Made by a program: the position numbers and the translations under genes. DNA of 64,000 nucleotides from Sporomusa malonica (GTDB lineage Bacteria > Bacillota > Negativicutes > Sporomusales > Sporomusaceae), in the NCBI RefSeq assembly GCF_900176355.1, contig NZ_FWXI01000027.1, positions 1 to 64,000 of the forward strand. Reading direction: 5' to 3'. This document shows positions 23,659-42,361 of this stretch, piece after piece. Under the pieces are notes generated by a model. The model saw only the letters and a list, made by a program, of their open reading frames with translations. It had not been told where the DNA came from and made no database searches. Each line of letters starts with the position of its first letter. Position 1 is the stretch's first letter.

Positions 23659-24684
23659 ATGCGAGCAGTTTCAGTATATGAAGCAGAAGGCATGGTCCTT
23701 TGCCACGATGTAACAGAAATCATTCCTGGTAAGTGTAAAGGAAGAGCGTTTAAAAAAGGACACGTTATCCGAAAAGAAGACATCTCCAGATTGCTAAACA
23801 TCGGTAAAGAACATATTTACGTGTGGGAAATAAACGAACAAACAATTCATGAAAATAATGCAGCAGAAAGATTGGCACATGCAGTAGCTGGATCCGGACT
23901 GGTATTTGCCAATGCTGCAGAAGGCAAAGTCGAATTAAGTGCCGCCAAAAGCGGCTTGTTAAAAATTAATACCGAGGCTCTCGAAAGAATAAACGACATT
24001 GAGCAGATTGCAGTGGCCACCTTGCATTCTAACCAGATGGTAGACATGGGCAGAAAGGTTGCAGGCTGCAAAATTATTCCCCTGGTAATTGAGACAAAAA
24101 AGATCCAACTAATTGAAGAGATATGTGCTGCTTATTATCCGGTGGTGGAGCTTAAACAACTGAATCCGTATAAGGTAGGGGTGGTAACTACCGGCAGCGA
24201 GGTTTACCATGGCCGTATCCAAGATTGTTTTGGGCCTGTGCTGAAAGATAAGTTTGAGCGTTTAGGCAGCTCCATCTTACGTCAAATCTTTGTTCCTGAT
24301 GATATTTCCATGATTAGTGAAGCAATCCATAGTTTACTTATGGAAGGCGCCGATATGATTGTTACTACAGGCGGCATGTCTGTTGACCCTGACGACGTAA
24401 CCCCTTCCGGTATCCGGGCAGCTGGCGGCCGGATAGTGACATATGGAGCGCCGACTTTACCAGGAGCTATGTTTATGCTTGCTTATTTTGGGCAAGTTCC
24501 GGTGCTAGGTCTGCCTGGGTGTGTAATGTATCATAAGAGTACTATATTTGACCTGGTTGTACCACGCATATTGGCCGGCGAGGAACTGTCCCGTAAAGAT
24601 ATCATACGGCTTGGTCATGGTGGGTTGTGCCTGGTATGCGAAGAATGCCGTTATCCAGAATGTGGGTTTGGAAAAGGTATATAA
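23659..24684 (+). CDS. MoeA-like molybdopterin-binding protein
   Basis: 341 residues sharing the molybdopterin-binding fold of MoeA/MogA: GVVTTGSEVYHG at about 175, IVTTGGMSVDPDDVTPSG at about 235 and VLGLPGCVMYHKST near 285. The N-terminal part is shorter than in full MoeA, and the C-terminus carries a cluster of cysteines (CLVCEECRYPEC) absent from ordinary MoeA, possibly an Fe-S or zinc site. It is the first gene of the sigma-54 operon, directly before the molybdenum enzyme, so it probably inserts or modifies the cofactor of that enzyme specifically. AGGGAGGG supports the start. Confidence 0.85.
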   Translation: MRAVSVYEAEGMVLCHDVTEIIPGKCKGRAFKKGHVIRKEDISRLLNIGKEHIYVWEINEQTIHENNAAERLAHAVAGSGLVFANAAEGKVELSAAKSGLLKINTEALERINDIEQIAVATLHSNQMVDMGRKVAGCKIIPLVIETKKIQLIEEICAAYYPVVELKQLNPYKVGVVTTGSEVYHGRIQDCFGPVLKDKFERLGSSILRQIFVPDDISMISEAIHSLLMEGADMIVTTGGMSVDPDDVTPSGIRAAGGRIVTYGAPTLPGAMFMLAYFGQVPVLGLPGCVMYHKSTIFDLVVPRILAGEELSRKDIIRLGHGGLCLVCEECRYPECGFGKGI

Positions 24685-24772
24685 TAATCTGGTTTAGGAA
24701 GTCACGTGTATTTCGGGGATATGTCAATCCCCTGAGATATAAGAACATTCATAAAGGAGAGAGAGAAAACAG

Positions 24773-27502
24773 ATGCAAAAGAAGATTCTGAACATCAATG
24801 GCCTTCCCAGAACGTTAATTGTTGACCCTGAAGTCAGTCTGGCAAGCGTGCTTCGCGAACAACTTCTCCTGACCGGCTGTAAGGTTGGCTGTAATCAAGG
24901 TCAATGCGGCACTTGTTCTATTATCATGGATGGCAGAGTTGTAAGGTCTTGTGTTGTGAAAATGAAGAGGGTGCCTGATCAAGCTGTTATAACCACCATC
25001 GAAGGTCTTGCTACACCCGACAATCTTCATCCGCTGCAAGTAGCCTGGATGGCATACGGTTGCGCCCAATGCGGTTTCTGCAGTCCTGGCTTTATTCTGT
25101 CGGCAAAGGTTTTGCTTGACGAGAATCCCAATCCAACCAGAGAAGAGGTTCGCGAATGGTTCCAGAAGAACCGTAATGCATGCCGTTGTACCGGTTATCA
25201 GCCGTTAGTTGATGCTGTTATGGCAGCAGCTAAAGTTGTTCGCGGTGAAATGCGTAAAGAAGATCTGTTATTTAAGCCTGTTGGCAACAAGATCTATGGA
25301 ACAACCTATCATCGTCCGTCTGCTTTGCAAAAAGTTACCGGTACCTGGGACTACGGTGCCGATGTCAACCTGCAAATGCCTAAAGGTACCTTACGTCTGG
25401 CCTTGGTTCAAGCGGAAGTCTCCCATGCTAATATTAAGGGGATTGATACTTCTGCAGCCGAAAAAATGCCTGGCGTTTACAAAGTAGTTACTCATAAAGA
25501 CGTTAAAGGTAAAAACCGGATTACAGGTCTAATCACCTTCCCAAGTAATAAAGGCGACGGCTGGGATCGCCCGATCCTTAATGATGAGAAAGTATTCCAG
25601 TTTGGAGACGCTATCGCTATTGTTGCCGCCGATACTGTAGAGCATGCTAAAGCAGCTGCTGCCGCAGTTAAGGTTGACCTGGAAGTATTGCCAGCTTACA
25701 TGAGCGCTCCTGCTGCCATGGCTCCGGATGCTATTGAAATTCATCCTGGCACCCCTAATATTTACTATGAACAAGGCGTTGTAAAAGGTGAAGACACTAA
25801 GCCGTTCATGGCAGACCCCAATATTGTTACTGCAGAAGCTGAGACCTACTGCAGCCGTCAGCCGCACCTTCCGCTCGAGCCTGATACCGGCTGCGCCTAT
25901 ATGGATGAAGAAGGCCGTCTGACTATTCATTCCAAGAGTATTGCCCTTCACCTGCATCATGCCATGATTGCTCCCGGCATCGGCATTGAGCCGGAAAAGC
26001 TGCGTCTTGTTGCTAACCCGACCGGCGCTACCTTTGGCTACAAGTTCAGTCCGACCAACGAAGCATTGCTCGGCGTTGCTTGCGTAGCTTGCGATGGCAA
26101 GCCTGTTTCTCTTGACTTCACCATGTATCAGCAAATTACGTATACTGGTAAGCGTTCACCTGCCCTTGTAAAATGCAAGCTCGCCGCCGATAAAACAGGT
26201 AAATTGGTAGCAATGGAAACCGACTGGTGGCTTGACCATGGTCCGTACAGTGAATTTGGTGACCTCAACACTGTACGTCAAGGTCAGTTTACTGGTGCAG
26301 GTTATAATATTCCGAACATTCGCGGAAAAGGCCGCACTGTTTGCACTAACCATGCTTGGGGCTCAGCCTTCCGCGCTTATGGCTCGCCTAAAGCCTTCCT
26401 GTCTTCAGAAATCGCTATCGACATTTTGGCCGAAAAACTTGGCATGGATCCATTTGATCTGCGTTATAAGAATATCTACCGTCCCGGTTCTACCACTCCT
26501 ACCGGCCAGGTACCGGAAGTATTCTGTTTAGAAGAAATGATGGATATACTCCGTCCGTTGTACGAAGAAGCTAAAAAGCGTTGTAAAGAACTCTCAACCC
26601 CTGAAAAGAAACGTGGCGTTGGTTTGGGAGTCGGTATGTATGGCTGCGGTCTTGACGGCCCTGACGGTTCTGTATGCTGGGTTGAACTTAACAAAGATGG
26701 TACTGTAAGTATTGGCGACTCCTGGCAAGATCATGGTCAAGGTGCCGATCTTGCAACTTTGACCCACGCTCATGAAACCCTCCGTCAGATGGGTATTGCG
26801 CCAGAACAAATCAAGCTTGTTATGAATGACACGGCCTTTACACCTGCTAGCGGTCCGTCCGGCGGCAGCCGCCAAAACGTTATGACTGGTAACGCCATTC
26901 GCGTTGGTTGCGAAATGCTTGTGAACGCAATGCGTAAAGCTGACGGAACCTTCCGTACTTATGACGAAATGGTCGCTGAGAACATCCCCGTTCATTACGA
27001 AGGTAAATGGGCTGCCTCCATGTGCACTGACTGCAGTCCTGAAACCTGCCAAGGCGACCCATTCTGCTGCTATGTATACGAACTCTTTATGCCTGAAGTT
27101 GAAGTTGATATGAAGACCGGTAAAGCAACAGTAGTTGATTTTACTACTGTTATTGATTGCGGTACAATTACCAATAAGCAAACTACTGATGGGCAAGTAT
27201 ATGGCGGTCTGGCCCAAGGTATTGGTCTTGCTCTTACTGAAGACTTTGAAGATCTCAAAAAGCATACCAGTTTAGTTGGATGCGGCCTGCCGTTTATCAA
27301 AGACGTTCCTGATAACATGAAAATCATCTATGTCCAGACCCCGCGTGAACATGGCCCGTATGGTGCTTCCGGCATAGGAGAAGGCCCTCTGACCTCTCCA
27401 CATCCTGCTATTCTTAATGCTATCTACAACGCTTGCGGCGCTCGGGTGCAGTCAGTACCTGCACTGCCTGAAAAAATTCTGGCAGCTATGCCAAAAAAAT
27501 AA
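24773..27502 (+). CDS. mop: Molybdenum aldehyde oxidoreductase, Mop type
   Basis: A fused-chain molybdenum hydroxylase of 909 residues. Residues 40, 45, 48 and 60 are the cysteines of the plant-type [2Fe-2S] cluster and 100, 103, 137 and 139 those of the second cluster: as I recall, the same positions as in the 907-residue Desulfovibrio gigas aldehyde oxidoreductase. The catalytic Glu sits near residue 870 in GASGIGEGPL. There is no FAD domain, so electrons leave to another carrier, perhaps the flavoprotein encoded next. It should oxidise an aldehyde or a heterocycle; the substrate is not readable. It has its own AAGGAG site. Codon use is richer in GC-ending codons than its neighbours, suggesting high expression. 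Confidence 0.93.
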   Translation: MQKKILNINGLPRTLIVDPEVSLASVLREQLLLTGCKVGCNQGQCGTCSIIMDGRVVRSCVVKMKRVPDQAVITTIEGLATPDNLHPLQVAWMAYGCAQCGFCSPGFILSAKVLLDENPNPTREEVREWFQKNRNACRCTGYQPLVDAVMAAAKVVRGEMRKEDLLFKPVGNKIYGTTYHRPSALQKVTGTWDYGADVNLQMPKGTLRLALVQAEVSHANIKGIDTSAAEKMPGVYKVVTHKDVKGKNRITGLITFPSNKGDGWDRPILNDEKVFQFGDAIAIVAADTVEHAKAAAAAVKVDLEVLPAYMSAPAAMAPDAIEIHPGTPNIYYEQGVVKGEDTKPFMADPNIVTAEAETYCSRQPHLPLEPDTGCAYMDEEGRLTIHSKSIALHLHHAMIAPGIGIEPEKLRLVANPTGATFGYKFSPTNEALLGVACVACDGKPVSLDFTMYQQITYTGKRSPALVKCKLAADKTGKLVAMETDWWLDHGPYSEFGDLNTVRQGQFTGAGYNIPNIRGKGRTVCTNHAWGSAFRAYGSPKAFLSSEIAIDILAEKLGMDPFDLRYKNIYRPGSTTPTGQVPEVFCLEEMMDILRPLYEEAKKRCKELSTPEKKRGVGLGVGMYGCGLDGPDGSVCWVELNKDGTVSIGDSWQDHGQGADLATLTHAHETLRQMGIAPEQIKLVMNDTAFTPASGPSGGSRQNVMTGNAIRVGCEMLVNAMRKADGTFRTYDEMVAENIPVHYEGKWAASMCTDCSPETCQGDPFCCYVYELFMPEVEVDMKTGKATVVDFTTVIDCGTITNKQTTDGQVYGGLAQGIGLALTEDFEDLKKHTSLVGCGLPFIKDVPDNMKIIYVQTPREHGPYGASGIGEGPLTSPHPAILNAIYNACGARVQSVPALPEKILAAMPKK

Positions 27503-27567
27503 TTTCATCACTGGGAAGTATATAGTTGATTGATAACCAACAATATCTATGAGTTTTAAGTAAGCAG

Positions 27568-27617
27568 CCTAAAACGAACTGGGAAGCCAAGCCGGTTTTC
27601 CGTTCGTTTTAGGTTTC
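27568..27617 (+). terminator. Hairpin terminator after the aldehyde oxidoreductase
   Basis: CCTAAAACGAAC at 27568 pairs perfectly with GTTCGTTTTAGG ending 27613, followed by a short T/C tail. It may partly end transcription between the enzyme gene and its accessory genes, so that the enzyme is made in excess. Confidence 0.7.
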
Positions 27618-27659
27618 CCCTATATGTAAGAAACTTTAATTATTTATCCGATGACTAAC

Positions 27660-27759
27660 CCGCTCTAAGACTCCCGCCCTCTAAAGGCGGGAGTAAGAGC
27701 GGCTAAGTCCCTGGATAAGGTCGACTAAACTTCAGATGGGGTTAAAACCCCACCTGAAG
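27660..27759. repeat. Two tandem hairpins in the gap before the accessory genes
   Basis: 27660-27702 folds into a long stem (CCGCTCT..GACTCCCGCC with GGCGGGAGT..GAGCGG) and 27730-27759 into a second (CTTCAG.TGGGG with CCCCA.CTGAAG). Both are preceded or followed by CTAAG/CTAAGTC text. They occupy most of the 301-base gap 27503-27803. They resemble ends of a repeated mobile element or an intergenic RNA; nothing codes here. Confidence 0.6.
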
Positions 27760-27803
27760 CTAAGTCTCTCTTTATTAAAAATTAAAGGAAACGAGAGAAT
27801 AGT

Positions 27804-30134
27804 ATGGATCAAAAATTATTGCGTGAACGGGAAGCAAAATGCGTCCAAGATAATCCGCCAGGCTGCACTGCCGGGTGTCCGGTCCATGTTGATGTCCGGG
27901 GCATGATCGCTGCTGTTCGTAAAGGTGACTTCGCGTCAGGCTTTGCTTTGTTTAACAGAATGGTTCCTTTTACGGGAATTATTAGCAGGATTTGCGACCA
28001 ACCCTGCCGGCAAGGTTGCAAACGAAACGAGCTTGATGAGCCTATTTATATTAGTGCCATAGAAAAAATATGTGTTGATAATAATTCATCTGCACCCAAA
28101 ATGGCGATTCCACCACTAAAAAGTCAAAAGGTAGCAGTAGTGGGAGCAGGTTTGAGCGGTTTGACTGCGGCAGTAGAGCTTACCCGCAAAGGGTACAAGG
28201 TGGTAATTTTTGAAGCAACCGACCGTTTAGGGGGAAGTATCTGGGATATTCCGGAAAACCAGTTGCCCCGGCAATTGATCCACAACGATTTTCAAATTAT
28301 AGAAAAATTATCTTTAGAAATACATTATAAAACAGTAATAGGCAACAACACCGACGCAACTATGACATTTGTCAACCTATGCGAGAATTTTGACGCTGTC
28401 TATCTGAGCGCAGGCTGCAAGAATACAAATTCTCGGGACTTTGGACTTGCAGTAGATGAAAGTGAGAAGCTGGTAATTGATTCTTTCACTTTGGCGACAA
28501 GTCATCCCAAGGTCTTTGCTGGTGGCAGTTTGCATTTGGGCTGCGAAGGCAGATCCCCAATCTTATCGATTGCTGATGGGAAAATTGCCGCAAATTCGAT
28601 TGACCGGCATTTGCAAAATGTTTCACTTACTGCTAATAGACAAGCGGCAGGACCATATAAGACAACTCTTTATACCAATATTGCCGGTGTTAAACCACAA
28701 CCTATGGTAAAAGCTGCAGACTCTTTTAACCGCTATACTGAAGAAGAGGCTTTACAGGAAGCTAACCGTTGTTTGGCCTGTGAGTGCCTTGAGTGCGCGA
28801 AAGCTTGTGAATATCTTGCTCATTTCCGTGGTTATTCCAAAAAGTGCGCACGCGAAATCTATAACAATTTGTCAATTGTAATGGGTATTCACCATGCCAA
28901 CAAGTTGATAAATTCATGTAGTCTATGTGGACTTTGTGAACATGTGTGTCCTGGGAAGTTGAGTATGGCCGAAATTTGCCAGGAGGCGAGGAATATGATG
29001 GTGCAAAAGGGTAAAATGCCGCCTTCGGCGCATGATTTTGCACTGCGGGATATGCAGTTCAGTAATGGCGATGATTTTGCTCTTAATCGCCATCAGCCTG
29101 GGTTTGCGTCCAGTGAATGGGTATTCTATCCCGGTTGTCAGCTTGCTGCATCCTCACCACAATATGTAAAGAAAATTTATGAATTTCTGCGTAAACAGCT
29201 CGAGGGCGGCGTAGGGCTAATGCTGGGGTGCTGCGGAGCTCCGGCCAACTGGGCTGGGCAAGAAGTTTTATTTCAGGAAACAATGAAAAATATGGAATGT
29301 AACTGGAGAGAACTAGGAAGTCCTAAGATAATTACCGCTTGTCCGACATGTTTTAGTATGTTTAATCATAATATTTCTGATATGTCTGTGGAGAATTTAT
29401 GGACATTATTAGAGCGTACCGGTTTGCCTGACAGGGTTTGGCAGGCAGCTACTCCACAAAAACTGGCTATTCATGACAGTTGTACTACAAGATATGAGCC
29501 ACAGCTGCATGAGAGTGTTCGAAATATTTTAAACAAGCTGAACGTTGAAATTGAAGAATTGCCTTTTAATCGTGACAGTACAGTATGTTGCGGCTATGGA
29601 GGCTTGATGATTTATGCCAACAAGGAAGTTGCGCATAAAATAATAAACAGACGTATTGGGGAAAGCGAAACAGACTATCTTGCCTATTGTGCAATGTGTC
29701 GTGATAATTTTGCCAGTCAGGGCAAGCGCGTGTACCATTTGTTGGATTTAATCTTTGGATCTGGCGAGGACAATTTAGCAGATCAAGAAGGGCCAGGTTA
29801 TTCTCAGCGCCAAGAAAACCGGGCGAAATTGAAGACAATGCTGCTGCGTGAAGTGTGGGGTGAGGCTGTGGATGAGCCACAAGTTAATATCAAAGTCATT
29901 ATTCCGGAAAGTGTAAGACGTATTATGGATGACAGGCGGATTCTTGTCGATGACGTTACTAAAGTTATTGCCTACGCTGAAAGCACTGGTAACAAATTGA
30001 AACAAGATGAGAGCGGTCATTACATTGCGTATTTCCAACCTGTCAGTGTAACATATTGGGTGGAGTATTCGCCACAAGGAAATGAATTTGTTGTCTATAA
30101 TGCTTATTGCCATAGATTGGAAATTACCGGATAA
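27804..30134 (+). CDS. Multidomain Fe-S flavoprotein with HdrB-like CCG domains
   Basis: 776 residues. In order: a glutamate-synthase-type N-terminal Fe-S region (CTAGCPVHVD, CDQPCRQGC), an FAD-binding Rossmann fold (VVGAGLSGLTAA), a ferredoxin part (CLACECLECAKAC, CSLCGLCEHVC), then a heterodisulfide-reductase HdrB-like pair of CCG domains (GCCGAPANW, CPTCFSMF, CCGYGGLM, CAMCRDNF) that would hold a noncubane cluster, and about 80 residues at the C-terminus I do not recognise. It probably passes electrons from the aldehyde oxidoreductase to a disulfide or low-potential partner. Such dicluster flavoproteins recur beside Mop genes in Desulfovibrio. It is cytoplasmic. Confidence 0.85.
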   Translation: MDQKLLREREAKCVQDNPPGCTAGCPVHVDVRGMIAAVRKGDFASGFALFNRMVPFTGIISRICDQPCRQGCKRNELDEPIYISAIEKICVDNNSSAPKMAIPPLKSQKVAVVGAGLSGLTAAVELTRKGYKVVIFEATDRLGGSIWDIPENQLPRQLIHNDFQIIEKLSLEIHYKTVIGNNTDATMTFVNLCENFDAVYLSAGCKNTNSRDFGLAVDESEKLVIDSFTLATSHPKVFAGGSLHLGCEGRSPILSIADGKIAANSIDRHLQNVSLTANRQAAGPYKTTLYTNIAGVKPQPMVKAADSFNRYTEEEALQEANRCLACECLECAKACEYLAHFRGYSKKCAREIYNNLSIVMGIHHANKLINSCSLCGLCEHVCPGKLSMAEICQEARNMMVQKGKMPPSAHDFALRDMQFSNGDDFALNRHQPGFASSEWVFYPGCQLAASSPQYVKKIYEFLRKQLEGGVGLMLGCCGAPANWAGQEVLFQETMKNMECNWRELGSPKIITACPTCFSMFNHNISDMSVENLWTLLERTGLPDRVWQAATPQKLAIHDSCTTRYEPQLHESVRNILNKLNVEIEELPFNRDSTVCCGYGGLMIYANKEVAHKIINRRIGESETDYLAYCAMCRDNFASQGKRVYHLLDLIFGSGEDNLADQEGPGYSQRQENRAKLKTMLLREVWGEAVDEPQVNIKVIIPESVRRIMDDRRILVDDVTKVIAYAESTGNKLKQDESGHYIAYFQPVSVTYWVEYSPQGNEFVVYNAYCHRLEITG

Positions 30135-30146
30135 CGGGGGAGACAA

Positions 30147-30356
30147 ATGAGCAAAGAGGTAACTCAACAACAATTGAATATTGTTTGCGTTAAGTGCGGC
30201 ATTAAACTTACGCTGGGTAAGGTAACTTTATCATATCTTGGCAGCAGTTTTCCAGTTGAGCTTTACAAATGTTCTGCGTGCGGTTTAGTCTACATTCCGG
30301 AAGAACTGGCTAATGGCAAAATGCAGCAGGTGGAGGCGGCATTGGAGGATAAATGA
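30147..30356 (+). CDS. Small two-CxxC redox or metal protein
   Basis: 69 residues with CVKCG at residues 14-18 and CSACG at about 43-47, spaced like a zinc ribbon or rubredoxin-like site. It resembles the tiny DVU_1557-type protein encoded beside the Desulfovibrio Mop cluster. Its last codons overlap the next gene in ATGA. It may be a redox partner of the flavoprotein upstream. Confidence 0.75.
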   Translation: MSKEVTQQQLNIVCVKCGIKLTLGKVTLSYLGSSFPVELYKCSACGLVYIPEELANGKMQQVEAALEDK

Positions 30357-31033
30357 TAACAGACGGAGTCATACGCCCTGGTGGAGTGGTGCTGACTAAA
30401 CGGTTGCTTGACTATTGCGCCTTCCCGCCACTTGCCAAGATAGTTGATGTCGGTTGTGGTACCGGAATTACAGTGGAATATTTGCGCGATGTCCATGGGT
30501 TAAATGTAGTAGGTGTTGATTTGTCGGAGGAGCGCCTCAGGCAAGGGCGGGAGCGTTCAGCCGATTTGGATTTAGTTCAGGCGCCGGGGGAAGATATGCC
30601 ATTTACCGACGCTTCGGTAGACGGTGTTTTAGCTGAATGCAGTTTGTCGGTTATGCAGGATATCAGCAAGGCTTTAGCTGAATTTTGTCGTATACTTACT
30701 CCTGGGGGGAAATTGGCTTTAACTGATATTTATGTTCGGAACGTGGGGGATACCTCACAAGTCGGCAATATGCCGGACTCAGGCTGTATATCCGGTTATC
30801 TCACTCATGGCAGCTTGACTAAGATGTTAAAGGAGAAAGGTTTTAAGATTATTGCATGGGAAGACCAATCTGATTTTTTGCGGGAGTTTGTTGCTTGCTT
30901 CATTATGGAGTATGGCTCAGTTGAGAAGCTTTGGCAATGTTTATCTACAAGAATCAATGACAGGCAAATATGTGAGCCAACACCAAAAACGACCAAGCTC
31001 GGTTATTTTTTGCTTGTTGCCGAAAAGAGCTAA
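30353..31033 (+). CDS. trsM: Class I SAM methyltransferase, TrsM-like
   Basis: 226 residues with the motif I VDVGCGTGIT, an acidic motif II (VVGVDLSEE) and a motif near ALTDIYV, all of the Rossmann methyltransferases that use S-adenosylmethionine. It resembles the DVU_1556 family in the same gene neighbourhood. Its substrate is unknown; in this cluster a cofactor, a small metabolite or a partner protein are all possible. It is coupled to the gene before by a four-base ATGA overlap. Confidence 0.82.
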   Translation: MITDGVIRPGGVVLTKRLLDYCAFPPLAKIVDVGCGTGITVEYLRDVHGLNVVGVDLSEERLRQGRERSADLDLVQAPGEDMPFTDASVDGVLAECSLSVMQDISKALAEFCRILTPGGKLALTDIYVRNVGDTSQVGNMPDSGCISGYLTHGSLTKMLKEKGFKIIAWEDQSDFLREFVACFIMEYGSVEKLWQCLSTRINDRQICEPTPKTTKLGYFLLVAEKS

Positions 31034-31051
31034 ACGAAAGGATGATTTGCA

Positions 31052-31222: not shown

Positions 31223-31265
31223 CGGTATAACGATCAATATTACTTATCATTTGGAGGCTGGAACA

Positions 31266-31523: not shown

Positions 31524-31561
31524 ATACTTGTGCAGTTAATTTGTTATGAGGGGGAGCTAGA

Positions 31562-32332: not shown

Positions 32333-32643
32333 TGGATCGGACAATGGTAAACATCATTTGCGAAAAGCAAAAAAACGGAGAAAAAGCCGCTCTGGTTACT
32401 ATTGTTGAAACACGCGGCTCTACACCCCGCAAGGCAGGAAGCAAAATGCTGATCTCACCTGATGGTAAAGCTTTCGGGACGATTGGGGGCGGTTGTGGTG
32501 AAGCGGAAGTTAGACGTCAGGCTTTAACCGCACTTGACGAAAACCGGTCCAGGTTATACACGGTGACGATGTTAAACGAAGTGGCTGCCGATGAAGGAAT
32601 GGTCTGTGGCGGTATCATGGAGGTATTTATCCAGATCATCTAA
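32332..32643 (+). CDS. Stand-alone XdhC/CoxI N-terminal domain
   Basis: 103 residues with IVETRGSTPRKAGSKML and TIGGGCGEAEVRRQA, the pattern of the N-terminal domain of XdhC, ending MVCGGIMEVFIQI. The Rossmann half is missing because it is supplied by the gene just before, with the two halves in reversed order and coupled by TGATG. Together they would rebuild one XdhC. Cofactor binding is the likely role. Confidence 0.85.
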   Translation: MDRTMVNIICEKQKNGEKAALVTIVETRGSTPRKAGSKMLISPDGKAFGTIGGGCGEAEVRRQALTALDENRSRLYTVTMLNEVAADEGMVCGGIMEVFIQII

Positions 32644-32687
32644 TTTGAGAGTTGCTGTTCCATGATTTATGGGAAAGGCGGGAGAGT

Positions 32688-33134
32688 ATGACAGATGCGT
32701 TTATGAAGATGGTAGAGCTATCACAAGCAGGCTTTTATTGCAGCCAGATAATTCTCATCATCGGGCTGGAGGCTCAAGGCAAAGAAAATCCTGATGTTGT
32801 ACGGGCTATGTCCGGTCTGGTCGGGGGAATGGGCTTCTGCGGTAAAACCTGTGGCGCTTTAACCGGTGGAGCATGTCTTATCGGTCTCTATGCCGGCAAG
32901 GGAACCGTCGAAGAAATGGAGGACAGCCGCGTTAACGACATGATCAGGGAACTTGTCGGATGGTTTGAAGAAGAGGCTGTTTCCCAGTATGGGGGAATTG
33001 CCTGTGATGATATTTTGGAGAAGAATCCGATGAACCGGATGGCGAGGTGTCCGCAGCTTACCATTAAGACACTTGGAAAAGTTCAGGAAATTCTATCTGC
33101 CAATGGATACGAGCTCACTGGCCAATTCGATTAG
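32688..33134 (+). CDS. C_GCAxxG_C_C family redox protein
   Basis: 148 residues after choosing the ATG at 32688 (GGGAGAG just ahead; the longer frame from 32652 has no ribosome site). The cysteine pattern CGKTCGALTGGACLIG near the middle, an earlier Cys around residue 18 and later Cys in ACDDIL and RCPQL match the C_GCAxxG_C_C family, small helical proteins thought to bind an Fe-S cluster or another metal. It resembles the DVU_1555 protein next to the Desulfovibrio Mop genes. Confidence 0.82.
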   Translation: MTDAFMKMVELSQAGFYCSQIILIIGLEAQGKENPDVVRAMSGLVGGMGFCGKTCGALTGGACLIGLYAGKGTVEEMEDSRVNDMIRELVGWFEEEAVSQYGGIACDDILEKNPMNRMARCPQLTIKTLGKVQEILSANGYELTGQFD

Positions 33135-33172
33135 TCACACTTCAAACGTTGGCAAGTAGAGGAGGGGTATAC

Positions 33173-34234
33173 ATGAAAGGGTTTTATCAAAACGTAGTTG
33201 ACCTACTTTCTTGTGGCGAGAGTATTGTATTGGCTACTATCTTTCACAGTGCGGGATCAGCTCCGCGCTCGGCTGGGGCAAAGATGGTCATACGTGCTGA
33301 TGGTTCTATAATTGGAACGGTTGGCGGAGGACGCTTGGAAGCTGATACTATTGGGCTAGCGAAAAAAGTTATGGAAAGTCGGCAATCTGTAATACAGGCG
33401 TTCGACTTGACTGGGACAGATGCTGCCGGGGTTGGAATGATTTGCGGTGGGGCAGGCGAAATCCTCCTGGATTATATCGACGCTGGCGATGATGAAAACC
33501 GTAAAGTGTTTGAAGCAATTATCGCAAATATGGATAAAGCGCAAAAGGCTTGGCTGATAACTGAATTAGCTGAAGAACCGGTGGAAGGAAAAATGCGGCA
33601 GCAATGTCTGGTTAAACACGATGGAACGGTAATCGGCAGTTTTCACTGCGAGCCAGAGTTTATGGCAAAGCTGTCATCTGGTCCGGCTAAGATTTCGATC
33701 CATGCTGACATTAAGGATGGTCGTCGCTTTATCGTGGAACCTATCAGAACCACAGGTGTAGTATACTTGTTCGGAGCAGGCCATGTTTCGCAACAAATTG
33801 CGCGACTTACTGATATGGTGGGTTTTAATACAATAGTGCTGGATGATCGTCCGGCGTTTGCCAATAAGGAGCGGTTTCCCAAGGCGGAAACTGTTGTTAT
33901 CGATACCTTTCAGCCTCTCCCGGAACTGGTTATCAATAAAGACAGTTATCTTGTCATTGTGACAAGAGGACATCTTCATGACAGCATTGTGCTGGAACAG
34001 GCTCTCCGGACAAGTGCCGGATACATTGGTATGATCGGCAGCAAAAAGAAACGGGATAAACTGTTTAAGTCTCTTGAGGCCCAGGGATTCAGCAAGGAGG
34101 ACCTAAAACGGGTATATTCCCCGATTGGTATTGACATTTATGCCGAGACACCGGAAGAAATAGCAGTAAGCATTGTGGCTGAGTTGATCAAAGCCAGAGC
34201 GGAGCGGGAAAGATGTGTAACTGTAGAAAGATAG
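33173..34234 (+). CDS. Full-length XdhC-family molybdoenzyme maturation protein
   Basis: 353 residues holding both parts in the usual order: the CoxI N-terminal domain (HSAGSAPRSAGAKMV, GTVGGGRLEAD, GMICGGAGEILLDY) and the Rossmann half (LFGAGHVSQQIA, LDDRPAFANKERFP, IVTRGHLHD, YIGMIGSKKKR, SPIGIDIYAETPEEIAVSI). AGAGGAGG precedes the ATG at 33173. It is the third XdhC-type gene of the cluster; paralogues may serve sulfuration, insertion or a different enzyme. Its end overlaps the next gene by 22 bases. Confidence 0.9.
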   Translation: MKGFYQNVVDLLSCGESIVLATIFHSAGSAPRSAGAKMVIRADGSIIGTVGGGRLEADTIGLAKKVMESRQSVIQAFDLTGTDAAGVGMICGGAGEILLDYIDAGDDENRKVFEAIIANMDKAQKAWLITELAEEPVEGKMRQQCLVKHDGTVIGSFHCEPEFMAKLSSGPAKISIHADIKDGRRFIVEPIRTTGVVYLFGAGHVSQQIARLTDMVGFNTIVLDDRPAFANKERFPKAETVVIDTFQPLPELVINKDSYLVIVTRGHLHDSIVLEQALRTSAGYIGMIGSKKKRDKLFKSLEAQGFSKEDLKRVYSPIGIDIYAETPEEIAVSIVAELIKARAERERCVTVER

Positions 34235-35334
34235 CAGGGTTAATTGTTGCCGCAGGATATTCATCACGGATGGGCGCATTCAAACCGCTGTTGCCATTAG
34301 GCGGTAAAACGGTGATCGAAACAGCAGTAGACAGTTTGCGTCATGGAGGAGTAACTGATGTAAGGGTGGTGGTCGGTCATCGGGCTGAAGACCTCTATCC
34401 CTTATTGGAACGGTTGAATGTTTGCGTTATTGAGAACCCGCGGTATGCTGAGGGCATGTTTTCTTCTGTTGTTGCCGGTCTTAATACCCTTGCCGGTGAA
34501 GCTGAGGCATTCTTCCTACTGCCTGGCGATACGCCGTTAATAAGAAAACGCAGTATTAAAGATATGTTGCGGGAATACCGCAAAACCGGTGCAGCCGTGG
34601 TTTACCCAGTTTTCCATGACCATAGGGGCCATCCGCCGCTTATTAGTGCTAGGTGTTTTGAAAGCATCCTCAGCGGCAATAGCGCTGGCGGTCTGCGAGA
34701 TATTCTGGATCGATTTGCCGCTGATAGCGTAGAGGTTGAACTAGCAGATCAGGGTGTATTGCTTGATATAGATACAATTGAAGATTATCGGAAACTTTCG
34801 GATTTTTATGCGCAGCGGGAGATTCCGACTTATGACGAATGTCTTGCCATATTACATAAGCATAGGGTTGACAGTAGAGTATCACGGCATGGGCAGGTTG
34901 TTGCAGATGTGGGCCGCAGTATGGCAGGTCTACTTAATGGCGTAGGTTTAAATCTCAATGTTGATTTGGTTATCGCCGGGGGACTTGTACATGATCTGGC
35001 AAAGGGTAAGCCAAACCATCCCAAGCGAGGCGGGCGGATGATCAATTGTATGGGTTTTTCAGCATTGTCGGGTATTGTAGCTTCTCATATGGATATGGAG
35101 TTTGCGGCAGACTATGTCGTTGATGAGGCAGCTATTGTGTTCCTTGCTGACAAGTTAGTTCAGGGTGACAGGCTGGTAACTCTTGCTGAACGGTTTGGCC
35201 CAGCATTAAACAAGTTTTCGAGCAGTCCTGAAATTATTGATTCGGTTTTGCGAAGAATGCGGACAGCAGAAGCCATTAGCGATCGAGTATTGGGTCTTTT
35301 GGGAATCAGTAGCTTTGACGAAATGGCATTATAA
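34213..35334 (+). CDS. MobA-like nucleotidyltransferase fused to an HD domain
   Basis: 373 residues. Residues about 8-195 are a MobA/MocA nucleotidyltransferase (LIVAAGYSSRMGAFKPLL, LLPGDTPLI), the type that adds CMP or GMP to molybdopterin. From about residue 225 an HD phosphohydrolase follows, with AGGLVHDLAKG carrying the metal-binding HD. It resembles the DVU_1551 NTP transferase. Molybdopterin cytosine dinucleotide, the cofactor of Mop enzymes, would be a fitting product; the HD part might hydrolyse a nucleotide or a cofactor intermediate (inference). Confidence 0.88.
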   Translation: MCNCRKIAGLIVAAGYSSRMGAFKPLLPLGGKTVIETAVDSLRHGGVTDVRVVVGHRAEDLYPLLERLNVCVIENPRYAEGMFSSVVAGLNTLAGEAEAFFLLPGDTPLIRKRSIKDMLREYRKTGAAVVYPVFHDHRGHPPLISARCFESILSGNSAGGLRDILDRFAADSVEVELADQGVLLDIDTIEDYRKLSDFYAQREIPTYDECLAILHKHRVDSRVSRHGQVVADVGRSMAGLLNGVGLNLNVDLVIAGGLVHDLAKGKPNHPKRGGRMINCMGFSALSGIVASHMDMEFAADYVVDEAAIVFLADKLVQGDRLVTLAERFGPALNKFSSSPEIIDSVLRRMRTAEAISDRVLGLLGISSFDEMAL

Positions 35335-35349
35335 TAGGGGGCGAGGTCT

Positions 35350-36483
35350 ATGAAGCCAGTTTATTTGAATAATGCCGCGACTTCATGGCCAAAGAAAGGG
35401 CAGGTGGGCGGTACCGTTGCTGCTTACATTGACGGACTTCCCTGCCATGCCGGACGTTCGGGTTTTAGCGGGTGGGATGTTACGGGACAATGCCGGGGGT
35501 TATTGGCTGGCTTGCTTCAGGTAAAGAATCCCAACCAGATTGTTTTGTGTTCTAATGCTACCTACGCCTTAAATATCGCTCTACATGGCATACACTGGCA
35601 GAGTGGAGCAGCAGTAGTAACTACTGCTGCTGAGCATAATTCTGTCCTGCGCCCGTTGCATTATCTGTCAAAAACCAAGGGGATATCCATTCATGAGGTT
35701 TCCGTTGATAGAATGGGGCGGGTCATCCTAGATGAATGGGAAGCCGCCATACAGCAATTTAAGCCCCAACTGGTTGTGTTTACTCACGCATCTAATGTTA
35801 CCGGTGCGGTTAATGATGCGGCGAGGCTCGGCGAGATAGCCAAACAGGCAGGTGCCATTACTCTCTTGGACGCATCACAGAGTTTGGGCATTATTCCTGT
35901 CTTACCTGAAGTATGGGGTTTTGATATGGTGGCTTTTACCGGGCATAAGTATCTGTTAGGCCCGACTGGTACGGGAGGACTATATATAGCCCCCGGATTA
36001 GACTTAGAGCCGGTGTGGGTAGGCGGAACTGGGATACAAAGTGACCTTGACGAAATGCCGCCAGATATGCCTAGCCGTTTCGAAGCCGGCACCCCTAATG
36101 ACCCCGCGTTTGCCGGTTTGGCTGCTGCTGTGACCTGGGCAAATGATCATGGTCTTGACAGCACTGAGTTACAGAGCAAGATCGAGAGGTTAGCAGCAGG
36201 CTTGGCTGCAGCAGGAGCAGACGTTATCTTTGTGGCCCCCCCGAGGACTCCAGTTGTTTCTTTTACGCTAAGGGACTGGGATGTAGGAGACGTTGGCGAA
36301 GTGCTGCACAAAAGTTTTGGTATAATCTGTCGGACCGGACTCCATTGTGCGCCGCGAATTCATTCCTACCTTGGAAGCTATCCTGCTGGTACGGTGCGGT
36401 TCAGTTTATCCCGTTTTACTACATATGAAGAAATTGACTATTGCTTAAGGGCTGTAGGCGAGATGATGCATGAAACAGGTTGA
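35350..36483 (+). CDS. Class V aminotransferase of the cysteine desulfurase family
   Basis: 377 residues with the PLP-binding lysine in FTGHKYLLGP (about Lys200), the aspartate of LLDASQSLG and the TAAEHNS histidine stretch of the family. A late cysteine in CRTGLHCAP lies where desulfurases keep the persulfide-forming Cys. It may supply sulfur to the molybdenum cofactor (sulfurated Mo is needed by Mop-type enzymes). Sulfur transfer is inferred from the family and neighbours. AGGGGGCGAGG is just ahead of the start; the end overlaps the next gene by 14 bases. Confidence 0.87.
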   Translation: MKPVYLNNAATSWPKKGQVGGTVAAYIDGLPCHAGRSGFSGWDVTGQCRGLLAGLLQVKNPNQIVLCSNATYALNIALHGIHWQSGAAVVTTAAEHNSVLRPLHYLSKTKGISIHEVSVDRMGRVILDEWEAAIQQFKPQLVVFTHASNVTGAVNDAARLGEIAKQAGAITLLDASQSLGIIPVLPEVWGFDMVAFTGHKYLLGPTGTGGLYIAPGLDLEPVWVGGTGIQSDLDEMPPDMPSRFEAGTPNDPAFAGLAAAVTWANDHGLDSTELQSKIERLAAGLAAAGADVIFVAPPRTPVVSFTLRDWDVGDVGEVLHKSFGIICRTGLHCAPRIHSYLGSYPAGTVRFSLSRFTTYEEIDYCLRAVGEMMHETG

Positions 36484-36784
36484 ATGGAAAAAGGTTGAAA
36501 ATTGCTTTAGCGGCACTAATGTATATGAATACCGTTTGCCTATTAAGGCCGATGAGGGATTTATTAATCACTTTTGCACAATTGGTTCGGTCAAATATTT
36601 TCGGAATTTTCCGCGACCATTTTTTAAGGCCGACCTTGCTGACGGTATAACGCTAAAAGGAGTTATTGCTGATTCTGTAATTAAAGTCAGCTTTCCTGAT
36701 CAAGATCCGCTAGGCTGCAAGCAAAAATTTGAGTGGCTCTTGGAAGAATTGATCAAACAACATGAGACTGGCGGGGAGCGATAA
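36470..36784 (+). CDS. Uncharacterised 104-residue protein
   Basis: Starts inside the end of the desulfurase homologue (14-base overlap) and ends eight bases before the radical SAM gene, so it is translationally coupled. A mixed alpha/beta protein with two cysteines (FCTIG, LGCKQ), no transmembrane part. No family recognised. It may be a partner or chaperone of one of its neighbours. Confidence 0.6.
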   Translation: MKQVEWKKVENCFSGTNVYEYRLPIKADEGFINHFCTIGSVKYFRNFPRPFFKADLADGITLKGVIADSVIKVSFPDQDPLGCKQKFEWLLEELIKQHETGGER

Positions 36785-36792
36785 ATTTTAAC

Positions 36793-38181
36793 ATGGATGA
36801 TATCCGAGAACAAGAAGAAGTGGTACTTTCTATAACCCAAAGTGTCTGTCCTGAATGTCTGCAACGCATTCCAGCTCAACGCGTGGCACGGGGTGACGAT
36901 GTGTTTTTAAAAAAATGCTGCCCAGAGCATGGTGAGTATCAAGTACGCATCTGGCAGGGGGAAGCTGCCTACCTAAACTGGAATAGTCCCCAAATCCCGT
37001 CTTCGCCGGCAGTCTGTGCCACCGAAAAAGACCGGGGGTGCCCCTTTGACTGCGGCTTATGCCCAGATCACCGCCAGCAGACGTGCTGTGTGCTGTTGGA
37101 AGTGACAAACAAATGCAACTTGCAGTGCCCTGTCTGTTTTGCCGCATCGTTACTGGACGAGCAGGAACAACCGGACCTTGCGGTCATTGAGGGCTGGTAC
37201 CGTATGCTGATGAATAGTGGTGGGCCCTACAATATTCAATTGTCAGGCGGTGAGCCAACTGTTCGTGATGATTTGCCAGAGATTATCTCAATGGGCAAAA
37301 GGCTGGGATTTGATTTTTTTCAGGTTAATACCAATGGCTTGCGACTTGCAACTGATGACGAGTATGTTGGCAGGCTGAAAGCAGCAGGACTAAATTGTGT
37401 ATTCCTGCAGTTTGATGGGATGAACGACAACGTCTATACCAAGCTGCGCGGGCGGGCGCTGCTTGACATCAAGAAGCAGGTACTAGAGGTCTGCGCTGCC
37501 CATGATATTGGTGTAGTGCTTGTACCGACTTTGGTGCCTGGGGTAAACGATGAGCATATTGGTGATATTTTGAAGTTTGCCATCAGCAGGATGCCGACCG
37601 TGAGGGGAGTCCACTTTCAGCCGATCAGCTACTTTGGGAGATACCCAGAAGCCCCGGTAGATGCTGATCGTATAACCCTTCCTGAGGTTATTCGGGAGAT
37701 TGAGAAACAGACTGGTGGGCAGATGAAAGCAGAGCACTTTCGCCCACCAGGTGGTGAACATGCCCATTGTTCATTTCATGGTAATTTTGCCCTTATGCCT
37801 GATGGCGATTTAAAACCTCTTCTGCCGCAAAGTACAGGTACCTGTTGCTGTACCCCTACAACTGGGGGAGCTAAGCGTGCCCGGCAGTTTGTTGCCAGGC
37901 AATGGTCGTCTGCCACCACGGCAGCATCTCGCAGCAACCAACCACGCAGTTCTGAAGGCGCCACTGGCAGCCTGACTAGTCTGGATGAGTTTTTGGAACG
38001 AGTAAGTACCTATAAGCTTGCTGTGTCAGGTATGGCTTTTCAGGATGCCTGGACCTTGGATTTGGATCGGCTAAAGCAGTGCTTTATTCATGTGGTAAGC
38101 CCAGAGGGCCGGTTGGTTCCTTTTTGCGCCTATAACCTGACAGACCGTCAGGGACGGGCTCTGTACCGGAGGGGGTTATGA
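36793..38181 (+). CDS. trsS: Radical SAM protein of the TrsS type
   Basis: 462 residues. The radical SAM cluster motif CNLQCPVC sits at residues 108-115 (Cys108, Cys112, Cys115), followed by QLSGGEPTVRDD, the SAM-binding GGEP. The N-terminal 90 residues have further cysteines (CPEC, KCC, CPFDCGLC), and the C-terminal third has HCSFHGN, TCCCTP and VPFCAYN. The arrangement matches the TrsS proteins found with Mop clusters, some of which contain selenocysteine; here no in-frame stop is seen, so this copy is a cysteine form. Its reaction is unknown. It overlaps the next gene by four bases. Confidence 0.85.
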   Translation: MDDIREQEEVVLSITQSVCPECLQRIPAQRVARGDDVFLKKCCPEHGEYQVRIWQGEAAYLNWNSPQIPSSPAVCATEKDRGCPFDCGLCPDHRQQTCCVLLEVTNKCNLQCPVCFAASLLDEQEQPDLAVIEGWYRMLMNSGGPYNIQLSGGEPTVRDDLPEIISMGKRLGFDFFQVNTNGLRLATDDEYVGRLKAAGLNCVFLQFDGMNDNVYTKLRGRALLDIKKQVLEVCAAHDIGVVLVPTLVPGVNDEHIGDILKFAISRMPTVRGVHFQPISYFGRYPEAPVDADRITLPEVIREIEKQTGGQMKAEHFRPPGGEHAHCSFHGNFALMPDGDLKPLLPQSTGTCCCTPTTGGAKRARQFVARQWSSATTAASRSNQPRSSEGATGSLTSLDEFLERVSTYKLAVSGMAFQDAWTLDLDRLKQCFIHVVSPEGRLVPFCAYNLTDRQGRALYRRGL

Positions 38182-39530
38182 CAACTGATGTGCGGATAAC
38201 GCCACTAGACGCTTGGATTGCTGGGAAAATGGGAACAGCAGGTGGCCGGGTGACAAGGGAACAGATCAACTGTTACCAGTTAATTCGATTAAATGAAACA
38301 ATAAGCAGAGCGCGGAGCTTGAGTCCTTTCTACAGGAAGCATTTAGCCGGTATGGGGTTAAATGGTCTTACACGATTAGAACAGATTGCGGAATATCCCT
38401 TGACTACCGCAGCTGACGTGACTGCACACGCTTTGCAGATGGTATGTGTCTCGCAGAGCCAAATTAATCGGGTGGTGACCCTGAATACTTCAGGCACTAG
38501 CGGGAACCCGAAACGCATTTACTTTAGCCCTTTTGATCAGGAGCTGACAATAGATTTTTTTCAGTGTGGCATGTCAACCTTAGTTGGTCCAGGAGATAAG
38601 GCGCTTATTTTGCTGCCAGGTGAGCGTCCTGGCAGTGTGGGTGATCTATTGCTGCAGGCATTGTTGCGCCTTGGTGTTTTGCCCACTTATTACGGTCTTG
38701 TTGAGAACGTGCCGAAGGCCGTCCTGAGAATGTGTCAGGTAAAGGCAAACTGCTTGGTAGGTGTACCGGTACAAGTACTGGCAATGGCCCGCTATTGGGA
38801 AAAATGGGGCGGGAGTGAATGGGCGCCACGGTGTGCACTATTAAGTACCGACCACATCCCGGCAGCCATTACGCGCGAACTCAAGCGGATCTGGAATTGT
38901 GAAGTGTATGAACATTATGGAATGACAGAGATGGGATTAGGCGGGGGGCTGGAATGTGCCGCACATGAAGGCTGTCATATGCGGGAAGCTGATCTATATT
39001 TCGAAATTGTTGATCCGGTTTCTGCGCAGCCACTGCCAGACGGCGAGTATGGAGAGGTGGTTTTTACTACTTTAACAAGGCAAGGAATGCCACTGATTCG
39101 CTATCGAACTGGTGATATTTCGAGATTTATCGTGAATCAATGCCAGTGCGGCAGTATACTACGGCGTCTTGAACGGGTAAGGAGCCGGAAAGATGGAACA
39201 GTCTGTTTCGGGGAAGGCTGGGAGTTTACAATAGCAGATCTCGATGAAGTCCTCTTTGCCTTGCCTGAGGTCACTAATTTCACCGCTGAGGTTAACTATG
39301 GCGAAATTACAAAATTGAAATTAGTTATAGTCGTGCTAGCTGATGGTCAACCTCCAGACCAACCTTTTGCCTTAAGTGCTCTACGACAATTGCCTGCAAT
39401 CCAAGCGGCAGAGCAAGCCGGGAAGCTGATGGTAGAGGTAGAGTTTGTCCGCAATTTGACTTTATCTCCCGCAAAAAGAAGCATCCGTGTAACTGGTCTG
39501 GCGAGGGAGGGTGTGGGGAGTGCGGTATAA
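38178..39530 (+). CDS. Phenylacetate-CoA ligase-like AMP-forming enzyme
   Basis: 450 residues of the PaaK-like ANL superfamily: TLNTSGTSGNPKRIYFS (adenylate-binding loop), EHYGMTEMGLGGG, and the YRTGDIS motif. The late CoA-transfer domain carries the usual Leu-rich helix and ends SPAKRSIRV. It would activate a carboxylate as the AMP ester and CoA thioester. It matches the DVU_1553-type ligase. A carboxylic acid made by the aldehyde oxidoreductase is the obvious candidate substrate (inference), but modification of a cofactor is also possible. Confidence 0.83.
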   Translation: MTTDVRITPLDAWIAGKMGTAGGRVTREQINCYQLIRLNETISRARSLSPFYRKHLAGMGLNGLTRLEQIAEYPLTTAADVTAHALQMVCVSQSQINRVVTLNTSGTSGNPKRIYFSPFDQELTIDFFQCGMSTLVGPGDKALILLPGERPGSVGDLLLQALLRLGVLPTYYGLVENVPKAVLRMCQVKANCLVGVPVQVLAMARYWEKWGGSEWAPRCALLSTDHIPAAITRELKRIWNCEVYEHYGMTEMGLGGGLECAAHEGCHMREADLYFEIVDPVSAQPLPDGEYGEVVFTTLTRQGMPLIRYRTGDISRFIVNQCQCGSILRRLERVRSRKDGTVCFGEGWEFTIADLDEVLFALPEVTNFTAEVNYGEITKLKLVIVVLADGQPPDQPFALSALRQLPAIQAAEQAGKLMVEVEFVRNLTLSPAKRSIRVTGLAREGVGSAV

Positions 39531-40155
39531 TGCGAAGGAAAAAGTTATATATCTAATTCGTCATGGTAGTATAGAAATGGAGAATAGCGAGCGGCGGTAT
39601 ATCGGGCAAATTGATCTGCCTTTGTCAGACGAGGGTGTGAGGCAAGCTCGCTTGCTACAAGCAGAACTTGGGGGGGAAGATATTTCGAGTGTCTTTTGCA
39701 GTGATCTGATACGCTCTGTGGATACTGCGAGGATTATTTCTGCAAGCTGGGACACAGAATTAGTAATTAGGCGCGATCTTCGGGAAATTAATATGGGTGA
39801 TTGGGAGGGAAAAACTTTTCGGGAAATTGCGACATGCCATCCCGAAGAGTATGCAAAGCGGGGGAGTAATATCATCAGTTACCGTGCCCCGGGCGCTGAG
39901 AGTTTCGAAGAATGCATGTCCAGGGGTATTGCGGCATTCTCTGATATAGCCGATTCTACTGAAGGAAATATTCTTATTGTGGGTCATGCGGGGATTAACA
40001 GACTACTATTATGTCATATTCTTGGTATGCCTCTTGAAAATCTTTTCCGTATCTCTCAGGGGTATGGGTGTATTAACATATTGGCAGTTAGCGGCGGGCA
40101 ATATTGCGTTAAGTTGTTAAATGGGCTTGTATATGCACCGCGGAAAGAAGTCTGA
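39520..40155 (+). CDS. Histidine-phosphatase family protein (CobC/PGM-like)
   Basis: About 211 residues with the catalytic LIRHGSIEMENS stretch near the N-terminus (His of RHG), a VFCSDLIRSVDTA arginine patch and the second catalytic His in IVGHAGINR. The family removes phosphate from small molecules, for example the alpha-ribazole phosphate of B12 assembly. Start choice: GTG at 39520 with GGGAGG upstream, also overlapping the ligase gene by 11 bases; the frame opens from 39511. It is the last gene of the accessory operon. Confidence 0.82.
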   Translation: MRYNAKEKVIYLIRHGSIEMENSERRYIGQIDLPLSDEGVRQARLLQAELGGEDISSVFCSDLIRSVDTARIISASWDTELVIRRDLREINMGDWEGKTFREIATCHPEEYAKRGSNIISYRAPGAESFEECMSRGIAAFSDIADSTEGNILIVGHAGINRLLLCHILGMPLENLFRISQGYGCINILAVSGGQYCVKLLNGLVYAPRKEV

Positions 40156-42277: not shown

Positions 42278-42361
42278 GGGGCAATATTATATTATATCAT
42301 CGCGGTCTGCAGGATTTAGGTGTGAATGCCGGAGGCAGGCGTGTACAAAGGTGGAACTTAG

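Follow-up and report, generated by a model that had tools for sequence, protein, structure and literature searches.

The window analysed here, a stretch of 64,000 nucleotides from Sporomusa malonica (contig NZ_FWXI01000027.1, positions 1 to 64,000), carries between positions 23659 and 40155 a cluster of genes around Mop, a molybdopterin-dependent aldehyde oxidoreductase (24773-27502). Judged by their sequences, the genes of this locus fall into three sets: genes predicted to mature the molybdopterin cytosine dinucleotide (MCD) cofactor, which encode a MoeA-like protein, XdhC and a MobA-HD fusion; genes for presumed Mop partners, namely DIC, a DVU1557-type protein and a C_GCAxxG_C_C protein; and a trio that encodes the radical SAM protein TrsS (36793-38181), a methyltransferase (30353-31033) and an adenylate-forming ligase (38178-39530). 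We propose tentatively, at a rough probability of 0.38, that a small redox coenzyme is the product of the trio, formed through a radical bond formation similar to that of the enzyme Tes, and that DIC couples this coenzyme to Mop. A shared small redox coenzyme fits best because the trio is tied to Mop in one branch and partly free of it in another, is mostly single even where a genome has several Mops, and is linked to a protein with HdrB-type motifs. As a conserved set beside a well-known enzyme, these genes look as if they encode a small-molecule pathway that has yet to be described, and a set related to them is found in some microbes without detected Mop.

Distribution of the trio with and without Mop

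TrsS loci came from a single search of named genomes that used an alignment of 12 sequences (A1), from which the best 80 of 568 confirmed matches were taken. In 49 of these loci Mop lies within the fetched flank (10 kb) of TrsS, and the neighbouring genes were counted with our own profiles: DIC is present in all 49, the DVU1557-type protein in 47, the C_GCAxxG_C_C protein in 46, and the methyltransferase and the ligase in 44 each, followed by MobA-HD (36), the two XdhC profiles (24 and 10), the phosphatase (24) and the MoeA-like protein (17). A cysteine desulfurase and a small Cys protein of 104 residues, both presented as cluster parts in the preliminary description of this DNA, are indeed there, but they recur in 5 and 4 loci, respectively. 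On these counts the core consists of Mop, DIC, the DVU1557-type protein, the methyltransferase, the C_GCAxxG_C_C protein, TrsS and the ligase, and the desulfurase and the 104-residue protein are accessories. The core adjoins Mop in Bacillota, Thermodesulfobacteriota, Chloroflexota, Myxococcota and Pseudomonadota, and because of this recurrence in five phyla the cluster is not a chance arrangement.

Co-occurrence was counted in 149 genomes of the window's phylum and in 247 genomes of the Desulfovibrio family. TrsS was found in 11 of the 149, in 10 over the cut-off and in one at a contig edge (G072, 469.5 bits), and all 11 have Mop, again 10 over the cut-off and one (G076) as an edge fragment. 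The methyltransferase is over its cut-off in these 11 genomes and in no other; the ligase is over the cut-off in eight of them, just below it in two and at the level of a generic PaaK in G076. Full-length DIC is present in 10 of the 11, G076 having a free DIC-C domain only, and in none of the other genomes, three of which hold partial relatives (two counted over the cut-off). Two genomes carry an edge fragment of Mop without TrsS, one over the cut-off together with a distant TrsS-like protein of 332 bits (G083) and one below it (G073). In 15 genomes whose Mop-like enzymes are all weaker matches (507 to 758 bits) no TrsS was found, and two genomes without Mop (G105 and G124) have distant TrsS-like matches of 313 and 356 bits.

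For the Desulfovibrio family, the first count gave 157 genomes with both Mop and TrsS, 8 with Mop only, 10 with TrsS only and 72 with neither (Fisher p 1.3e-41). When the eight Mop-only genomes were re-checked, two (G273 and G285) proved to have TrsS beside Mop, missed at first look; in G297 and G309, where no TrsS was found, the contig ends at or just after Mop; and G200, G225, G351 and G359 remained Mop-only. Among the 10 TrsS-only genomes, three have Mop over the cut-off, G335, G288 and G367 have fragments taken to be Mop, the match in G346 is a weaker relative (268 bits), and there is no match in G174, G394 or G415. The reconciled count is 165 with both, 6 with Mop only, 4 with TrsS only and 72 with neither, these 72 not having been re-checked. 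The cluster is larger than an ordinary maturation set, as the preliminary description had held, and its trio tracks Mop in both samples.

Mop is missing from the flank at 31 loci, which belong to 22 genomes that were searched for it and 9 that were not. Mop was detected elsewhere over the cut-off in 9 of the 22, at 1099.7 of the required 1100 bits in one, and as fragments read as Mop in two; it was not found in 10, seven of which had no match at E 1e-100 and three only weaker relatives (799, 476 and 429 bits). Four of these 10 genomes are archaeal and three belong to Chloroflexota; the others are metagenome-assembled genomes (MAGs), one deltaproteobacterial and two from Bacillota, in which TrsS genes stand in tandem (L085 and L102, the former also with a ligase and a lipoate-ligase-like gene). 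As several of them are small, incomplete MAGs, some of the absences may be false. Three TrsS proteins from this group were scanned and score 533 to 595 bits, over the cut-off of the family. In a tree of 88 rows, 12 rows without detected Mop form, together with an extra copy from L099, a group of 13 that stands against a group of 71, in which Mop lies in the locus for 50 rows and elsewhere for 12 and was not searched for in 9; the branches that separate the two groups have moderate support (87/91 and 81/76). The 10 loci without detected Mop carry the ligase in nine cases, DIC-C in eight and the methyltransferase in four, and a URO-D-type gene precedes these genes at all four archaeal loci (one of the four scanned). 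The suggestion that the trio might occur only with Mop, the failure of which the preliminary description had named as a refutation of its reading, holds as a strong co-occurrence across genomes but does not hold for part of the family, since TrsS was found without detected Mop in 10 of the 22 searched genomes, with the full trio at 4 of the 10 loci.

More than one Mop match is listed for 22 genomes, and 10 secondary Mops were fetched from eight of these. None of the 10 has DIC, the DVU1557-type protein, the methyltransferase, the C_GCAxxG_C_C protein, TrsS or the ligase in either of the fetched flanks (about 6 to 8 kb); three adjoin a MoeA-like gene or part of one. In most genomes with several Mops the trio is present once. 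The genome of the window has one TrsS over the cut-off, and its second Mop, on another contig (L165), adjoins genes for DIC, a DVU1557-type protein and a C_GCAxxG_C_C protein, the trio not being there. Also at L165 are a betaine-type (BCCT) transporter, two FAD enzymes and a sigma-54 activator, and this second Mop perhaps acts on a different aldehyde substrate. In Desulfosporosinus fructosivorans there are two Mop clusters (L032 and L038), and a TrsS, a DIC, a methyltransferase and a ligase are encoded in both.

TrsS, DIC and a putative redox coenzyme

TrsS of the window matches NF045646 at 698 bits (cut-off 490), and its closest named relatives among the matches listed come from Sporomusa sp. 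KB1 (77%) and S. acidovorans (73%), in keeping with a Sporomusa-like acetogen. By far the best solved relative is Tes (GDGT-MAS, MJ0619, PDB 7tol), which scores 398 bits with profile A1 over its best stretch, the next structure reaching 62. The homology covers nearly the whole length and includes the metal ligands, with the labile M439, that the accessible part of PMC9433317 reports together with the mechanism of Tes. Across the TrsS rows, the Tes ligands C19, C22, C43, H46, C87, C108, C112 and C115 are present in 84 of 84 and C83 in 83 of 84; among rows with a residue at the position, C90 and H93 are found in 83 of 83 and M414, which corresponds to Tes M439, in 77 of 77. TrsS has, accordingly, the rubredoxin site CX2CX20CX2H, the N-terminal cluster motif C-C-C-H, the radical SAM motif CX3CX2C and the labile Met at the C-terminal cluster. 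Three further residues, C326 (83/83) and C430 and C445 (79/79), align with Cys of Tes and are probably ligands of that C-terminal cluster. An AlphaFold2 (AF2) model of TrsS reached a predicted local distance difference test (pLDDT) score of 86.

The two enzymes differ in several respects. The TrsS of the window falls below the Tes cut-off of NF045702 (366 of 450 bits), and segment 345-405, where the lipid-pocket helices of Tes are assumed to lie, has a hydrophobic fraction of 0.41 in Tes and of at most 0.26 in 82 TrsS proteins. C98 is present in all 84 rows and has no Tes counterpart, and a Cys pair at 352-353 is seen in 65 and 66 of the 71 rows of the Mop-associated group against 1 of 13 in the other branch. 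TrsS probably carries out a radical bond formation like that of Tes, on a substrate that is smaller or more polar. On the assumption that this segment corresponds to the lipid pocket, its polarity makes a coupling of membrane lipids less likely, though still conceivable. The Pfam zinc-ribbon name HMPTM suggests a class D radical SAM pterin methylation, a class that was a misannotation according to the accessible part of PMC9692996. TrsS is also listed as a selenoprotein in a 2026 review (PMC13188914, seen in part), but the gene of the window reads through without a stop and has Cys at the CC motif, and a survey of 79 TrsS domains in TGA-containing frames flagged four, in each of which the TGA lies before the zinc-ribbon start or after the end, so that no selenocysteine form was found.

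DIC (27804-30134; NF045663, 1046 bits, cut-off 530) is made up, by its Pfam domains and motifs, of Fer4_20, an FAD Rossmann part without the NAD(P) motif, a Fer4_17 dicluster domain, two CCG motifs (residues 445 and 560 in the window) and DIC-C. Its likeness to HdrB-type CCG proteins lies in the two C-x-CC-x-CxxC motifs, which are present in all 51 DIC proteins of over 680 residues; what sets it apart is its fusion with DIC-C and with a flavoprotein part that is GltD-like but truncated. The NAD(P) motif was found in none of 47 Mop-linked DIC proteins against 2 of 4 others, and Pfam coverage of Pyr_redox_2 is half in DIC of the window, none in that of Desulfovibrio gigas and complete in that of L066. 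Double-CCG proteins are also encoded at L062, L064 and L066 and beside the extra TrsS copy of L099, and at L062 the CCG protein is accompanied by a NuoF-like protein.

DIC-C, residues 691-776 of DIC (29874-30131), stands immediately before the gene of the DVU1557-type small protein with two CxxC pairs (30147-30356; NF045645, 96 bits, cut-off 60; Pfam DUF7479, 97 bits). In loci without Mop it is a separate small protein. An AF2 model (pLDDT 91) predicts a fold most similar to RelE, ParE and HigB, with a best Foldseek E value of 0.05 and none under 0.001, and one DIC-C member matches DUF4258 weakly (E 0.009, 16.7 bits, cut-off 25). Unlike these proteins, DIC-C is a domain of a metabolic protein; its position next to a CxxC protein recalls some toxin-antitoxin pairs, presumably taken into metabolism. 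The domain has no invariant column and five nearly invariant ones. One archaeal protein combines DIC-C with DVU1557 (a weak match, E 0.014), as does the DIC of G273 (NF045645, 74 bits, cut-off 60), and on account of these fusions the two probably act together. In G076 both occur free beside TrsS, with no DIC.

The proposed route begins with the ligase, of PaaK-like DVU1553 type (NF045666, 471 bits, cut-off 300; PDB 4r1l, 129 bits), which carries the adenylation motifs TSGTSGNPKR, YGMTEMG and RYRTGD in alignment with 4r1l and would adenylate a carboxylate. TrsS would then form an sp3 C-C (or C-S) bond by way of an alkyl radical held on a sulfide of its C-terminal [4Fe-4S] cluster, which is capped by Met, as in Tes; the methyltransferase (DVU1556 type; NF045667, 238 bits, cut-off 155; Pfam Methyltransf_11) would tailor the coenzyme. 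The product of the trio would be a small diffusible redox coenzyme with which DIC, both of its HdrB-type motifs being intact, exchanges electrons. Mop-linked DIC may have lost its NAD(P) part because electrons arrive from the aldehyde through Mop; in the Mop-less branch, where some TrsS are accompanied by a DIC with the NAD(P) motif or by a NuoF-like protein, NAD(P)H could be the partner. A wider version, which we regard as possible though doubtful, is that anaerobes have an undescribed redox coenzyme made by Tes-type C-C coupling, adenylation and methylation, which DIC would link to aldehyde oxidation by Mop or, where an organism has no Mop, in some cases to NAD(P)H; in its logic this would be a bacterial counterpart of the coenzyme M/coenzyme B heterodisulfide. 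The near-obligate association of the mop gene of D. gigas with a Tes-type enzyme and an HdrB-type protein would reopen the cellular role of Mop. If the trio does make a coenzyme, sulfate reducers, acetogens and gut Bacillota, perhaps together with some archaea, would share a new carrier, and the Tes fold would gain a further reaction.

Several observations weigh against a coenzyme that DIC links to Mop. HdrB-type sites also serve proteins that act on other substrates, and Mop has redox centres of its own. Because solitary Mops lack DIC nearby, not every Mop needs it as a neighbour. The NAD(P) comparison is one motif plus Pfam coverage in 51 proteins, only four of them not Mop-linked; the Mop of L030 may lie off the contig, as this locus starts at a contig end, and the DIC of L064 is long and still has no NAD(P) motif. 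The FAD motif was seen in only 14 of the 47 Mop-linked DIC proteins, the strict GxGxxG pattern being too narrow, and Pfam finds no FAD part in the DIC of D. gigas. In the fetched stretches, no double-CCG protein was seen at the four archaeal loci, L085 or L102, and L081 has only an open reading frame of 126 residues with one CCG motif. G076 has TrsS, methyltransferase and Mop and no ligase over the cut-off. Counted by pattern across the family, the three ligase motifs are present in 40, 50 and 55 of 66 proteins and the methyltransferase motif in 49 of 59, so that some of these enzymes may be degenerate (the A10 ligase pattern was too loose and was not used, nor was the pattern for the C_GCAxxG_C_C protein, 4/56). 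A literature search on the cluster and its proteins, with most subscription papers outside its reach, found no function for the trio. A small flavodoxin has, moreover, been described in electron transfer from or to Mop in the accessible part of PMC10223205.

Alternative explanations

Four other explanations have been weighed, of which protein maturation ranks highest, ahead of a substrate pathway, a supply of electrons to TrsS and, last, a modified molybdenum cofactor. Protein maturation, which seems rather unlikely, would have TrsS modify a residue of DIC, of the C_GCAxxG_C_C protein or of Mop, DIC-C and DVU1557 serving as recognition parts. Many radical SAM proteins are maturases, and the idea would agree with the single TrsS that serves several Mops, with the presence of DIC-C beside TrsS at 8 of the 10 loci without detected Mop and with the free DIC-C and DVU1557 of G076; a ligase and a methyltransferase of small-molecule type would be odd companions for a maturase, however, DIC-C has no invariant column, and the account of the D. 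gigas structure mentions no modified residue in its accessible part (PMC10223205). Slightly less probable is a substrate pathway, in which the trio would make or consume an aldehyde or acid, the compound that Mop really uses or forms. Ligases of this kind use carboxylates and Mop makes them, and TrsS tracks Mop across genomes; the module is nevertheless absent near all 10 secondary Mops fetched, the second Mop of the window's genome stands beside a betaine-type transporter and FAD enzymes, and TrsS and the ligase also occur where Mop was not found. For the same reason, that the 10 secondary Mops stand without the module, an unusual carboxylate product specific to Mop, one of the two ideas of the preliminary description, is disfavoured.

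The flow of electrons could also be reversed, Mop and DIC delivering low-potential electrons from the aldehyde to TrsS. The acid/aldehyde couple is very low in potential, and the distribution of the NAD(P) motif, 0 of 47 in Mop-linked DIC against 2 of 4 in others, would suit such a supply. This direction is nonetheless improbable: solitary Mops exist, and Mop has been purified natively. Mop is also among the proteins detected in the D. vulgaris proteome, as given in the accessible part of PMC10920352, and in view of both the proteome and the purification the supply of a biosynthetic enzyme is a poor fit. Least probable by a wide distance is the other idea of the preliminary description, a modified molybdenum cofactor in Mop, to which the radical SAM protein, methyltransferase and ligase beside Mop and the extra Cys pair in TrsS of the Mop-associated branch would point. 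The Mop of G188 is identical to the D. gigas enzyme in PDB 1sij over 411 of 411 residues, and its locus runs in the order MoeA-like, Mop, DIC, DVU1557, methyltransferase, C_GCAxxG_C_C protein, TrsS, ligase, XdhC and phosphatase. That enzyme, the first of the xanthine oxidase family with a crystal structure, contains MCD with pterin rings well defined at 1.28 A and an oxo rather than a sulfido ligand (PMC10223205, accessible part). Because a Mop that holds MCD is encoded in the same kind of cluster, a stably bound modified cofactor is unlikely, although a labile one is conceivable. TrsS also occurs where Mop was not found, and the class D pterin methylase precedent has been withdrawn (PMC9692996, in its accessible part). 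The D. gigas enzyme (PDB 1sij and 1vlb) is a homologue of the Mop of the window with the same core neighbours in a different gene order; it is the D. gigas protein, not that of the window, which was crystallised and for which MCD is known.

Composition and surroundings of the cluster

The genes named beside Mop in the preliminary description are all intact open reading frames, on the + strand like the rest of the cluster, and their protein types were confirmed by NCBIfam and Pfam scans, in which 9 of 15 cluster proteins passed an NCBIfam cut-off. The MoeA-like protein, both XdhC halves, the desulfurase, the 104-residue protein and the phosphatase were over none. Mop itself scores 1638 bits with NF045668 (cut-off 1100), and 1321 and 1314 bits with PDB 1dgj and 1sij. 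That parts list was correct in what it named, but it omitted DIC and the histidine phosphatase (39511-40155), which is CobC-like (PF00300, 187 bits; TIGR03162, 159.5 bits, cut-off 162.9). Its three XdhC-type proteins are of that type, but are really one full-length XdhC (33149-34234; NF045664, 438 bits, cut-off 350) and a second XdhC split into two abutting genes in reversed order (31562-32643). The C-terminal half, a Rossmann domain (31562-32332; PF13478), matches positions 175-343 of NF045664 at 189 bits and precedes the N-terminal half (32332-32643; PF02625), which matches positions 2-100 at 95 bits, both below the cut-off. With our own profiles, the reversed pair was also seen in Sporomusa sp. 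KB1 (L024).

The MoeA-like protein (23659-24684) has a MoCF_biosynth domain at residues 174-304 (PF00994, 90 bits), an unmatched N-terminal part and NCBIfam matches below cut-offs only. Its C-terminal tail is rich in Cys and ends in PECGFGKGI; a PxCxFGK motif close to the very end has similar counterparts in about 12 relatives. The C_GCAxxG_C_C protein (32652-33134) is of DVU1555 type (NF045669, 178 bits, cut-off 103), and the fusion of a MobA/MocA-like nucleotidyltransferase with an HD domain (34213-35334) matches NF045665 at 435 bits (cut-off 315), TIGR03310 MocA at 151 bits (below 186) and the Pfam domains NTP_transf_3 and HD. Of the accessories, the cysteine desulfurase family protein (35350-36483) reaches 325 bits with TIGR01977 (cut-off 377), and the 104-residue protein with three Cys (36470-36784) has no NCBIfam or Pfam match.

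The cluster resembles the DVU_1551-1559 Mop cluster of Desulfovibrio in its members over cut-off of the Mop, DIC, DVU1557, DVU1556, DVU1555, XdhC, DVU1553 and DVU1551 families, and differs from it in the split, reversed second XdhC and in the inserted desulfurase and 104-residue protein. Many of the matching families bear names taken from their neighbourhood (DVU_1551, 1553, 1555, 1556, 1557, 'near Sec' and 'XdhC_rel_AOR'), and because so many are named in this way the cluster has probably been seen by curators already.

The conserved extra neighbours that were scanned, among them parts of ABC transporters and a sigma-54 regulator, do not name the product. Upstream of the cluster lies a sigma-54-dependent regulator (21330-23360) that is similar to DhaR and PrdR, below the cut-offs; similar proteins occur in eight other loci, and the one scanned (L042) is a sigma-54 activator. 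A sigma-54 promoter site with two mismatches at 23570-23585 is one of 25 such sites in the window against 21.6 expected, a number not above chance. Further upstream, a ThiM hydroxyethylthiazole kinase (19627-20493) is not related to the cluster. On the other side, a protein with HTH_17 and PBP_like domains (40200-41120, - strand) stands between the cluster and the modABC molybdate transport genes (41444-43690, + strand) and is possibly a molybdate-linked regulator.

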